Source of the DNA: Natronosalvus amylolyticus
GTDB lineage: Archaea; Halobacteriota; Halobacteria; Halobacteriales; Natrialbaceae
NCBI RefSeq assembly: GCF_024298845.1
Contig: NZ_CP101156.1
Location: forward strand, 3,348,001-3,412,000
Length of the DNA stretch: 64,000 bases
Reading direction: 5' to 3'
A model generated the notes under the pieces. It saw only the letters and a list, made by a program, of their open reading frames with translations. It searched no databases and was not told the DNA's origin. Each line of letters starts with the position of its first letter. The stretch's first letter is position 1. The translations under genes and the position numbers were made by a program. Shown in pieces: positions 1,827-19,623 of the stretch.

Positions 1827-1906
1827 CATACGGTTTCCGTCGTTTTACCGATGATTGCCCGTAGCGGGGCGACAATCACCGAAAAAGGGTACAGCATACC
1901 GTATCA
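1827..1906. repeat. Palindromic repeat family B, copy 1
   Basis: This 80-bp palindrome runs from CATACGGTTTCC to ACCGTATCA, with inner arms TGATTGCCC and CGACAATCACCG. It matches 10675-10758. Its right end contains the TGA stop (1904-1906) of the DUF420 gene, so the element begins exactly where that gene ends. It could act as a terminator or be an insertion that replaced the original stop. Confidence 0.75.
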
Positions 1907-2506
1907 CCCGACGACGAGCCAGGCGAACTCGTAGGCGTAAATGTGATCGAGCATGAGGTACGTGACGACGCCCAGAATCAGACTCAACAGCCAGGCGCCA
2001 GCGGCAAAGCGGCCGACTCGAGCGTGGGCAGTCTCGCGGAGTTCGGCGGGCGTGTGTGTTAGCCCGAGCAGGAGTGCGTACAGCACCAGCGGGACGGCCA
2101 GAATCGAGAGCAGAATGTGGATTGCGAGCATCGCCAGATACGCGGAGGTGACGAGGTCGGGGCCGACGAACTGTTTGGTTCCGCCCCCGCCGACGCGAAC
2201 CAGGTAGACGACCAGAAATAGCAGGATGAGGGCGAAGGCAGTTACCATCGAGTAGCGGTGTTTTTCGACGTCCCCGGCGCGGATGTAGTACCAACCGGCG
2301 GCCAGAAACATGGTCGTCGTCGCGTTGATAACCGCGATGACGCTCGAGAAGAGGTTCACCTGCTCGTTGCTCAACTCGGGATAGATGGGGAGGTCGAGAA
2401 CGAACGTTCCGATGACGAGACTGTAGCCGACGACTGTGAGGACGATGGCCGTCTCGAGCGTGTTGTTCCGCACTCGTTGTCGTGCGGTCGCGGTCGCAGG
2501 AGCCAT
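1904..2506 (-). CDS. DUF420 (YozB/CtaM-like) membrane protein
   Basis: This 200-residue integral membrane protein has about five hydrophobic helices and belongs to the DUF420 family. Its histidines lie in family-typical places (EKHRYS, LAIHILL, LDHIY). Bacterial relatives (CtaM/YozB) are needed for assembly of heme-copper oxidases, so an oxidase-assembly role is plausible but not shown here. ATG at 2506 has an AT-rich box (CAAATACC, 2531-2538) 27 bp upstream, supporting a leaderless start. The stop codon lies inside palindromic element B. The gene faces away from the tandem repeats at 2611-2803. Confidence 0.8.
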   Translation of the reverse strand: MAPATATARQRVRNNTLETAIVLTVVGYSLVIGTFVLDLPIYPELSNEQVNLFSSVIAVINATTTMFLAAGWYYIRAGDVEKHRYSMVTAFALILLFLVVYLVRVGGGGTKQFVGPDLVTSAYLAMLAIHILLSILAVPLVLYALLLGLTHTPAELRETAHARVGRFAAGAWLLSLILGVVTYLMLDHIYAYEFAWLVVG

Positions 2507-5215: not shown

Positions 5216-6441
5216 GCGACGGTCCGGTGGAGGCTCCTGGGCTTGACGGGTCTGATATCGCCGTCGGCGCGGACGCGTTCGTCGACCGTGGTGCCGGTCT
5301 CGAGGTCGCCGTCGTCGGAGCGGGTGCGGTCGGCGCGACGGCCGCCTACGACCTGGCGCGGGAGGGCGCGTCAGTCACCCTGTACGAGAAAGGCGGGATT
5401 GCGAGTGGCTCGAGCGGGCGGGCGGCAGGCGTCTGTTACAACGCGTTTGCCGACGAACTGGACGCCGAGATTGCGGCCGACGCCATCGAACGCTTTCGCA
5501 CGCTTTCGGGCGACGAGACGTTCCCGTTCACGGAGTGCCCGTACGTCTGGCTCGTGCGCGAGGGCGACGACCAACGAGTCGACCTGATCCGTGGGGGTAT
5601 TCGGGAGATGCAAGAAAACGGGGTGGTCGCCCTCGAGGTCGGTCCCGACGAACTGGCCGAGCGTTTCCCCGATCTGCGAACTGACGACGTAGCCGTTGGG
5701 GGTATCGCTGGGGCTGCCGGCTACACTGACCCTGCCAGATACACGGCCTGTCTGGCTGCGGCAGCAAGCGGGGCTGGTGCCACCATCGAGACGGAGACGC
5801 CCGTCGGGGTTCGAACCGACCCGCCACGAGTCGTACCGACGGCCGATTCGAACTCGGTCGACGACGAACGCGAGTACGACGCCGTCCTCGTCGCGGCAGG
5901 CGGCCACACGAAGGCTATTCTCGAGGCTGCGAGTGTCCCGATAGCCATGAAGCCCTATCGCGTCCAGGCGCTGACGGCAACCGAAACGATTACCGAACCG
6001 ATGTGTTACGACGCGACGGGCGGATTTTACGTCCGGCCGCACGAGATGGGCCTACTCGCCGGCAACGGGACGGAGACGGTCGAGATCGACCCGGATTCGT
6101 ACGATCGATCGGCCAACCCCGACTTTGCGGCGTCGCTGATCGACCGCGTCACCCACCGATTTCCCGACCTCGAGGTCGACGAAAACGCGGTCGCTCGAGC
6201 CTGGGCAGGCGTCTGTACGGCCACGCCAGATCAGGACCCGCTCGTGGGCGAGGTAGCGCAAGGCGTGTACGTCGCGACTGGATTCCAGGGGCACGGCTTC
6301 ATGCGTGCTCCGGCTATCGGTGCACAGGTCGCCGATCAGCTGCTCGGCGGCGACGGAATCGATCGATTCGACCCAACACGTTTCGACGGCGACGAATCGT
6401 TCGACATCGTGGAAGGAATGGATCTCGACGGCCTCGAGTGA
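5212..6441 (+). CDS. FAD-dependent D-amino-acid/glycine oxidase family enzyme
   Basis: This 409-residue flavoprotein of the DAO superfamily oxidises an amine or amino acid. The Rossmann dinucleotide motif is VAVVGAGAVGATAAYDLA near residues 28-45. A typical C-terminal FAD contact follows in VYVATGFQGHGFMRAP. The start was set at the ATG overlapping the upstream stop (ATGA, 5212-5215), which removes 16 residues from the longest frame. Coupling to the creatininase-family gene suggests a two-step route in which an amide is hydrolysed and the resulting amine oxidised, as in creatine/sarcosine degradation; that is inference. Confidence 0.8.
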   Translation: MSDGPVEAPGLDGSDIAVGADAFVDRGAGLEVAVVGAGAVGATAAYDLAREGASVTLYEKGGIASGSSGRAAGVCYNAFADELDAEIAADAIERFRTLSGDETFPFTECPYVWLVREGDDQRVDLIRGGIREMQENGVVALEVGPDELAERFPDLRTDDVAVGGIAGAAGYTDPARYTACLAAAASGAGATIETETPVGVRTDPPRVVPTADSNSVDDEREYDAVLVAAGGHTKAILEAASVPIAMKPYRVQALTATETITEPMCYDATGGFYVRPHEMGLLAGNGTETVEIDPDSYDRSANPDFAASLIDRVTHRFPDLEVDENAVARAWAGVCTATPDQDPLVGEVAQGVYVATGFQGHGFMRAPAIGAQVADQLLGGDGIDRFDPTRFDGDESFDIVEGMDLDGLE

Positions 6442-7508: not shown

Positions 7509-9242
7509 ATGACTGACCCCGAAACGCTCTCGGTGACGATCGTCGACGGCTACGTCGACGAGCCCGCCCACTTCGGGGTGCCGCCGTACGTGTCGACCTA
7601 TCCGCGCTATACCGCGGGCGCGCTGGTCGATGCCGGCGTCCCACGCGAAGCGATTACCTATCACACCATCGACGGCCTCCGAGACGAGCCAAACCGGTGG
7701 CAGGACGTCGACGAGGCGGACCTGTTGCTCTATCTCGGCGGGATGACCGTCCCCGGAAAGTACGTCGGGGGCACGCCAGCGGAACCCGACGAAGTTCGAA
7801 AGCTCGCCTGGACGGCCAGTGGCACGAGTCTGATGGGGGGCCCCGTCAAGTTCGGCGTCGGTGACGCCAACGAGGGAGCGACCGAAACCGAACGCCAGGA
7901 CCTGGACTTCGATTTCGTCGCCAAAGGTGACGTCGAAGCAGCCGTCTACGATCTGGTTGAAAGCGGCCTCGAGGGGTTCAACAACCGAATGCGCGACGTC
8001 GAGGAAGCCAGCCGCTGGGCACGAGCGGGCGCGTTCGTCGTCGAGCAACACCCGAACCATCCGGAGTACCTGATCTGTGAACTCGAGACCGGTCGTGGCT
8101 GTGCCTACCGATGTTCGTTCTGTACGGAACCGCTCTACGGAAATCCCTCGTTTCGGCCGCCGTCGTCGGTTATCGAGGAGGTCGACGCGCTTTCAGCCCA
8201 CGGCGTCACCAACTTCCGCATCGGTCGACAGGCCGACATTCTGGCCTACGGCGGCGACGGGGAAGCGCCCAATCCCGATGCGCTCCGGGAACTGTACGAA
8301 GGAATCCGTGCTGTCGCACCGGACCTCGAGACCCTGCATCTCGACAATATGAACCCGATCACCATCGCGAAGTGGCCCGACCAATCTCGCGAGGGTATTC
8401 GGATCATCGCCGAACACAATACGCCGGGAGACACCGCCGCGTTCGGCCTCGAGTCGGCCGATCCGGTCGTTCAGGAGGCGAACAACCTCAACGTCTCCGC
8501 CGAGGAGTGTCTCGAGGCCGTTCGTATCGTCAACGAGGCTGGCGGCTGGCGTCCGGGTGAGAAACCGGGCACGGGGCCGTCGACGGGGCCGGACGCTGCG
8601 GGGCGATTGCCGAAGTTACTCCCCGGGATCAACCTCCTGCACGGGCTGATGGACGAACGCGAGGAAACCTACGACCACAACCTCGAGTTCCTCCAGCAGG
8701 TGTACGACGAGGGCCTGATGCTTCGTCGGGTCAACATCCGGCAGGTGATGGCCTTTTCGGGTACCGAGATGGCTGACACCGGCGCGAGTATCGCACATTC
8801 GCACAAGAAACTGTTCAAGAAATACAAACGCGAGGTGCGCGAGACGATAGATAATCCGATGTTACAGCGGCTCGCCCCGCCGGGAACCGTCCTGGAGGAC
8901 GTCTACCTCGAGTATCATCAGGACGGAAAGACGTTCGGTCGGCAGCTCGGGACGTATCCGCTGTTGGTCGGTATTCCGGGTGAACGGCCGCTCGGAACGA
9001 GTCTCGACGTTGCGATCGTCGATCACGGCTTCCGATCAGTGACTGCTGTCCCCTATCCGCTCGACCTCAACGTCGCGTCGATGGACGAACTCACGGCGAT
9101 TCCGGGTGTCGGAAAGCGACGGGCTGGCGACGTCGTCGTCAACCGGCCTCACGAAACGGTTCAGGGGGTGAACGCCGATCTCGAGACGTCGGTCGACCTC
9201 TCGTCGTTCACGACGGTTTCGCGGCCGACGACGCTCGAGTGA
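7509..9242 (+). CDS. Radical SAM protein with C-terminal helix-hairpin-helix
   Basis: This 577-residue protein has an N-terminal domain of about 190 residues before a radical SAM core. The iron-sulfur motif CAYRCSFC (CxxxCxxC) lies near residue 198. The C-terminus ends in a helix-hairpin-helix (NVASMDELTAIPGVGKRRAG), a DNA/RNA-contacting fold. The arrangement suggests a nucleic-acid- or ribosome-linked modification, but the substrate is unknown. GTTTTACC at 7479-7486 places a leaderless start at 7509, so the 26-residue in-frame extension upstream was left out. Confidence 0.8.
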   Translation: MTDPETLSVTIVDGYVDEPAHFGVPPYVSTYPRYTAGALVDAGVPREAITYHTIDGLRDEPNRWQDVDEADLLLYLGGMTVPGKYVGGTPAEPDEVRKLAWTASGTSLMGGPVKFGVGDANEGATETERQDLDFDFVAKGDVEAAVYDLVESGLEGFNNRMRDVEEASRWARAGAFVVEQHPNHPEYLICELETGRGCAYRCSFCTEPLYGNPSFRPPSSVIEEVDALSAHGVTNFRIGRQADILAYGGDGEAPNPDALRELYEGIRAVAPDLETLHLDNMNPITIAKWPDQSREGIRIIAEHNTPGDTAAFGLESADPVVQEANNLNVSAEECLEAVRIVNEAGGWRPGEKPGTGPSTGPDAAGRLPKLLPGINLLHGLMDEREETYDHNLEFLQQVYDEGLMLRRVNIRQVMAFSGTEMADTGASIAHSHKKLFKKYKREVRETIDNPMLQRLAPPGTVLEDVYLEYHQDGKTFGRQLGTYPLLVGIPGERPLGTSLDVAIVDHGFRSVTAVPYPLDLNVASMDELTAIPGVGKRRAGDVVVNRPHETVQGVNADLETSVDLSSFTTVSRPTTLE

Positions 9243-10585: not shown

Positions 10586-10674
10586 GTCTATTCACTGGGA
10601 CGCGACTCGTATAGACGTCCCGTTTTGGAGCGAAATGCAACGGGTACGCACACTGCTGTCCTGGTGGTGCTCTT

Positions 10675-10758
10675 CATACGGTTTCCTGTACCGTTTTATG
10701 AGTGATTGCCCATACCGAGTCGGCAATCACCGGGAAGAGATGACAGTAAACCGTATCA
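10675..10758. repeat. Palindromic repeat family B, copy 2
   Basis: This 84-bp palindrome spans CATACGGTTTCC to AACCGTATCA, with inner arms GTGATTGCC and GGCAATCAC. It matches copy 1 at 1827-1906 in both arms. As in copy 1, the terminal TCA is the stop codon of the adjacent minus-strand gene (10756-10758). Confidence 0.8.
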
Positions 10759-11568
10759 CACCGTCGCCCGGGTACCGTCCCACGTTAGCGCCCCTTCGAC
10801 GGCCAGTTTCTCGAGGTGGGCGACGACCGTCGCTCGAGCGAGGTCGAACACGTGCGAAACGTCCTTTTCGTATGCCACATCGACGATTGCCTCCGGGCTG
10901 GAAGCACCACCGGCGACCGCAACGAGTACCCGCCGTTCACGCTCGAGTCGGTGGGCGAGCAGTCGCTCGAGGACCTCTTGGGGCGCCTCTATTGTGGGCC
11001 CATGACCGGGATACAGGCGCTGGGCGTCGTGAGTACGGAGTCGTCGAAGCGTACTCAGGTAGGCGCGCATATCTCCTTCGGGGGCGGTCACGGCAACGCT
11101 TCCGTCGGCGATTGCACAATCTCCGACGAGAATAGCCGCCGGTGGCTCGTCCGAACTGTCCACCGATTCCCGGAGCCCAAACGCGACGTGTCCGGTCGTG
11201 TGTCCCGGCGCATCGATACACTCGAGCGTCCCGTTCTCGAGCGGTATCGTCTCTCCTGGAACGAATGTCTGGTCGGGTTCGACACCGGTCGCCTCGGTGA
11301 ACGATCGCTCCCGGCCAGCGCGAGCCCAGACCGTCGCGTCAAACCGCTCGGCGTACGTCGCCACACCACCCACGTGATCAGGATGACAGTGTGTCACGCA
11401 GATGTGCTCCACCGTTCGGTTGCTCAGTGCGTCTTCGAGGTCCTGGTCGGGGGTGGCGGGGTCGACGAGCACGACAGGATCGATCCCGATGATGTACGCG
11501 TTGGTTCGGCCGGTCGGGACAGCGGCGGGAACGGACAACGGCACTCGGGTAACCTCGGACAGCTTCAC
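10756..11568 (-). CDS. Metallo-beta-lactamase fold hydrolase
   Basis: This 270-residue hydrolase carries the binuclear zinc motif THCHPDHVGG near residue 59, further metal ligands in APGHTTGHVAFG and VGDCAIA, and YPGHGP. The C-terminal 70 residues form a winged-helix-like domain (SPEAIVDVAYEKD, VVAHLEKLAVEGAL), as in LACTB2-type enzymes, some of which cut RNA. The true substrate is unknown. The start is GTG at 11568. The stop lies inside palindromic element B. Confidence 0.8.
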   Translation of the reverse strand: MKLSEVTRVPLSVPAAVPTGRTNAYIIGIDPVVLVDPATPDQDLEDALSNRTVEHICVTHCHPDHVGGVATYAERFDATVWARAGRERSFTEATGVEPDQTFVPGETIPLENGTLECIDAPGHTTGHVAFGLRESVDSSDEPPAAILVGDCAIADGSVAVTAPEGDMRAYLSTLRRLRTHDAQRLYPGHGPTIEAPQEVLERLLAHRLERERRVLVAVAGGASSPEAIVDVAYEKDVSHVFDLARATVVAHLEKLAVEGALTWDGTRATV

Positions 11569-19537: not shown

Positions 19538-19623
19538 CCACAGTAGCCAGTAAACGTCATTGCACACCCTCTCGCAATACAGCGTCGCGAGAGGTGTGTC
19601 AATCGTTTCACTGACTACTATGG
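19538..19623. repeat. Palindromic repeat family A, copy 2
   Basis: This 86-bp imperfect palindrome has ends CCACAGTAGCCAGT and ACTGACTACTATGG. The inner arms CACACCCTCTCGC and GCGAGAGGTGTGT flank a short centre. It matches 1630-1713 across both arms. Compensating differences in the inner stem (CTCAC/GTGAG in copy 1, CTCGC/GCGAG here) suggest pairing is kept. It sits between the promoters of two divergent genes. Confidence 0.8.

Follow-up and report, generated by a model that had tools for sequence, protein, structure and literature searches.

A MITE-like palindromic element of Natronosalvus amylolyticus, its target duplication and its place at TGA stop codons

How do two unrelated genes come to end at the same kind of repeat? 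The question is raised by a window of 64,000 nucleotides, the whole stretch of Natronosalvus amylolyticus DNA that was analysed (NZ_CP101156.1, positions 3,348,001 to 3,412,000). The original prediction was that copies of a palindromic element adjoin two minus-strand genes with TGA stops, one of the DUF420 family and one for a metallo-beta-lactamase-fold (MBL) hydrolase, and that the element either inserts into stop codons or supplies them as part of a terminator. Both copies and both genes were found in place: the two ORFs lie on the minus strand, where TGA corresponds to TCA on the plus strand, and end at 1904 (DUF420) and 10756 (MBL). The repeat is, with high probability, a non-autonomous MITE-like transposon that duplicates a TSA target and has about a third of its copies in TGA stops.

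The element and its two copies in the window

The features discussed below are the following.

1826-1828, no strand: left target-site duplication TCA of copy 1
1829-1903, plus strand: copy 1 of the palindromic MITE-like element, 75 bp, TACGG...CCGTA
1904-1906, minus strand: right target-site duplication TCA, the TGA stop of the DUF420 gene
1904-2506, minus strand: DUF420 gene (Pfam DUF420, 1e-37), whose native stop codon is the insertion site
10674-10676, no strand: left target-site duplication TCA of copy 2
10677-10755, minus strand: copy 2 of the element, 79 bp, in the orientation opposite to copy 1
10756-10758, minus strand: right target-site duplication TCA, the TGA stop of the MBL-fold gene
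10756-11568, minus strand: MBL-fold hydrolase gene (Pfam Lactamase_B, 4e-17); the insertion is common to the relative Natronosalvus hydrolyticus (G004)

The termini (TACGG...CCGTA) were fixed by alignment of 12 copies from the window's own genome (G000). They delimit an inverted repeat of ~79 bp, transposase-less and MITE-like, that is nearly palindromic over its whole length; two halves, A (TACGGTTTACTGTCGTCTC) and B (TACGGTCTGCTGTAACTG), can be told apart around a central stem. The TCA had been read as an internal base of the element. It lies outside, as the right-hand 3-bp target duplication, and the same TCA stands on the left side. Nor do the two copies end alike, as had been thought: by the element's own asymmetry they are opposite, so that different ends face the two genes.

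An 11-nt central loop was seen in both orientations (CATACCGGGTC / GACCCGGTATG) in copies of G003, G004, and G000 whose arms are identical; the loop therefore inverts between the stem arms. The palindromic centre is kept with quite different stem sequences across subfamilies (GGTGATTGCC, GGTCAGCGACC, and CCGATCGCC; copies from G000, G004, and G019), which suggests that it is the hairpin form that is preserved.

A search with a covariance model built from own-genome copies revealed about 67 distinct copies in G000. The family was present in 18 of the 41 genomes searched, own included, which belong to several genera of the same family and, in two cases, to other families of the order. At the threshold of this search, no copies were found in the same-genus genomes G001, G006, and G007. 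A second subfamily, with the same ends and another centre, occurs in another genus (G019), and further copies lie on plasmids of Natronorubrum, Natrinema, and Halomicrobium. No viral contig matched either of the two end patterns exactly, and no match was found in phages.

Target duplication and mobility

The three flanking bases were identical on both sides in 119 of the 174 copies of four genomes (61 TCA, 54 TGA, and 4 TTA), against 60 expected from independent flanks. Identical duplications flanked 38 of the 42 younger copies of G003 and 22 of the 28 copies of G019, and TCA or TGA was found with either orientation of the element. An empty site was recovered for the G000 copy at C1:3422298: G004 matches both flanks of the insertion but carries one TCA in place of TCA-element-TCA. 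When joined flanks were compared between genomes by blast, over few orthologous regions, few further empty sites were added. A TA duplication of the IS630-like kind was considered and rejected in favour of 3 bp, since all of T-S-A is matched between the two sides and the empty site holds one TCA.

Two G000 copies (C1:780479 and 1741907) are interrupted by the other palindrome family of the window, and in G003 the element is inserted into that family. These insertions in both directions and the empty sites show that the element is or was mobile.

The second family (TATAGTAGCCAGTG...CACTGGCTACTATA) occurs in the window at 1630-1713 and about 19539-19622. Where it lies inside the element at G000 C1:780479 (L076), its flanks look like a TA duplication of the kind made by IS630/Tc1-type elements. 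The mutual insertions of the two families are found in L210 and L212 (G003) and in L076 and L099 (G000). At another place in G000 (L039, 1497-1520) where G004 carries the element, there is a remnant of 13-17 nt (TCATACGGTCTACTGTATCA), apparently left by internal deletion.

Copies at stop codons

In 22 of the 67 copies in G000, the duplicated bases coincided exactly with a gene's stop codon, which was nearly always TGA. The same-genus genomes G002, G003, and G004 together had 41 of 107 copies at stops (4/7, 16/42, and 21/58, respectively), and the four genomes pooled had 63 of 174 (36%); some G000 and G004 copies are shared by descent, so that the pooled counts are not all independent and pooled P values are overstated, while single-genome values stand alone. 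In G019, six of 28 copies were at stops. The gene calls came from a home-made codon model, trained for G000 on that genome's own long ORFs, and not from standard annotation. A glycoside hydrolase on the Halomicrobium plasmid pHmuk01 provides a case from public annotation: its annotated end falls exactly on the duplicated TGA.

As a null, a sample of 364 kb was used, made up of the window and 20 stretches, 18 of them random. About 8.5-8.6% of its non-coding TSA (TGA/TCA) sites are TGA stops (11.3% in YTSAR context). The original prediction that two genes ending at one repeat is more than chance was borne out by the count in G000, which departs from the 8.6% expected with P about 2e-8. A coincidence could appeal to the mere two copies in the window and to the 8.6% share of stops among non-coding TSA sites, but the pattern recurs genome-wide and also in two relatives, G003 and G004 (plain null, P 2e-7 to 6e-9); the genome-wide count refutes it, and we allow it next to no probability.

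Two further copies in G003 were seen near an apparent threonyl-tRNA synthetase gene (L279). An old decayed one (5260-5345) is at the stop of that gene, and a young one (7569-7650), 2.3 kb from the first, is at the stop of another gene.

Whether stop or element came first was examined in relatives. In G001, G004, G006, and G007, which lack the element at this position, the DUF420 orthologues end at the corresponding TGA. Element-free versions with the TGA in place were also found in G007 for the gene at 3417848 and in G004 for the gene at 3422298. Judged from these alignments, the stop is older than the insertion at the three loci tested. That the element supplies the stop is thus rejected at DUF420 and the two other loci, whose element-free relatives already have TGA. 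At the MBL gene, G004 has the same insertion, and in the other relatives the gene end differs too much for a comparison. In the preferred explanation, which we hold with confidence for the family as a whole, the element does not provide the stop. The original prediction was to fall if other copies had no bias to stop codons or if element-free relatives had the same stop; the bias is present, which speaks for it, and the same stop is found in element-free relatives, which speaks against it. Of its two readings, insertion into stop codons is the one supported, the TGA being the duplicated target.

The reason for the preference was sought in the target motif. A position matrix made from only the 101 copies outside stops gave a palindromic preference, roughly A.CGAC|TSA|GTCG.T with the core CGAC|TSA|GTCG; base -1 of the target is mostly C and base +1 mostly G or A, and identical duplications are TCA, TGA, or TTA only. 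Native haloarchaeal stops in the null sample resemble the left half of the motif, with GAC-like codons before TGA. When the null was weighted by the motif, 21-24% of copies were expected at stops, against the 36% observed. The same weighting placed ~75% of targets in coding sequence, and only 2 of the 174 copies overlap a called gene end; with so many coding targets and practically no copies there, we infer strong selection against coding insertions.

We propose that a transposase supplied in trans, presumably of the DDE type, would cut the palindromic target CGAC|TSA|GTCG with a 3-nt stagger, and that repair of the staggered cut would duplicate TSA (TCA or TGA) on both sides; the duplication is read from the sequence, whereas the enzymatic steps are our proposal. 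Insertions within coding sequence would be lost. An insertion at a TGA stop would be harmless, with one intact in-frame TGA left next to the gene, and neutral for the protein because the duplication restores that TGA. Haloarchaeal genes often end in GAC-TGA (an acidic codon with a GC-rich third position), a sequence that looks like half a target. Motif, coding loss, and harmless stop sites together would put about one third of the copies exactly in stop codons.

The motif and the loss of coding insertions explain most of the enrichment. An excess at stops of ~1.5-fold (1.3-1.7-fold) over the motif-weighted null is left, also among sites 0-120 nt from a 3' end, with P about 1e-4 pooled and 0.02-0.06 per genome (G000, G003, and G004); G019 has none. 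It may stem from misfit of the motif, from selection acting against intergenic sites close by, or from genuine targeting. Targeting would mean that the transposition machinery responds to gene ends by more than the DNA motif, perhaps through transcription or translation termination or the DNA topology of 3' ends. The excess is small, marginal in single genomes, and absent in G019, and either an imperfect motif model or selection against insertions in neighbouring intergenic DNA could account for it; we consider such sensing unlikely. We are equally doubtful of a stop-codon-targeting transposon in the strict sense, whose putative transposase would actively recognise gene ends and whose 3-bp duplication would regenerate the cut stop.

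The residual excess, together with the ~36% of copies at stops, could also be taken in favour of the original prediction that the end reading TGATACGG is a combined stop and transcription-terminator module, which would be under selection at gene 3' ends. Copy 2 does fold well as RNA (z -4.5 and -3.1), but copy 1 is no better folded than shuffles (z -0.6 and -1.1), and no Rfam family matches within the window. Moreover, the TGA is outside the element and is ancestral at the three tested sites, about two thirds of the copies are away from stops, and either half faces the gene equally (31 A and 32 B), which makes orientation immaterial. We consider such a module very improbable, less so only than coincidence.

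The insertion model describes an ordinary kind of element and a pattern that is real, somewhat surprising, and well explained. It accounts for an unrelated repeat that seems to end many Natrialbaceae genes, and it warns against taking such repeats for terminators. It is also a clean quantitative case in which a target duplication regenerates the codon of insertion, and because of this regeneration, compact genomes with acidic proteomes offer a safe harbour at GAC-TGA gene ends. The defined target motif and ends are now at hand for hunting the missing transposase.

Transposase and known relatives

The search by end patterns or at PF01609 loci revealed no full-length transposon or cognate transposase with TACGG ends. 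PF13359 had no match in six genomes. PF01609 matches exist; at the 30 loci examined by their flanks, which are not all of the matches, TACGG ends on both sides were absent, and clear inverted-repeat pairs mostly had 8-10-bp duplications. Unpaired end sequences in G000 and G003 were considered as transposon ends and rejected as decayed copies or remnants.

The element has the features of a MITE: it is short, without coding capacity, and has terminal inverted repeats, 67 copies, a target duplication, and a matching empty site. IS605-derived PATEs have neither terminal inverted repeats nor target duplication, and identity with them was rejected, as the element has both. ERIC/REP-type bacterial repeats are likewise small, palindromic, and intergenic; the element here shows a 3-bp target duplication and empty sites. 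A phrase search of the literature for stop-codon insertion by MITEs found nothing, which is weak evidence of absence.

A report on Haloquadratum walsbyi (PMC3119063) describes MITEs whose ends are in common with a known transposon, and SMRs of ~80-110 bp whose ends are unrelated to known transposons. The SMRs insert without target duplication, and most of their targets are other mobile elements. Like the element here, both are short, transposase-free, haloarchaeal inverted repeats with many copies, and the passages on them mention no stop-codon bias (PMC3119063). Identity with the SMRs was rejected, since the element has a target duplication.

The closest behaviour is that of IS1031-group elements and of NuwaII. 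The 3-bp TNA duplication in a C|TNA|G target is that of IS5/IS1031 or PHIS (NuwaII-like) elements. In bacteria, the IS1031 subgroup of the IS5 insertion sequences makes a 3-bp duplication of 5'-TNA-3', and an IS1031-group element has been reported inserting at TGA (PMC12016507). The subgroup carries its own transposase, to which no homologue was found here, and the ISLrh ends (GAACCTGTCT...) are unlike TACGG. In eukaryotes, NuwaII of the PHIS superfamily prefers C|TNA|G (PMC4482050). NuwaII and PIF/Harbinger share with our element a 3-bp duplication in a small palindromic target, and the NuwaII core is the same as C|TSA|G here; they are eukaryotic, and the duplication here is TCA or TGA, rarely TTA. 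The element behaves like the TNA-duplicating IS5/IS1031 and the C|TNA|G (NuwaII) elements, and is at most a candidate member of either group.
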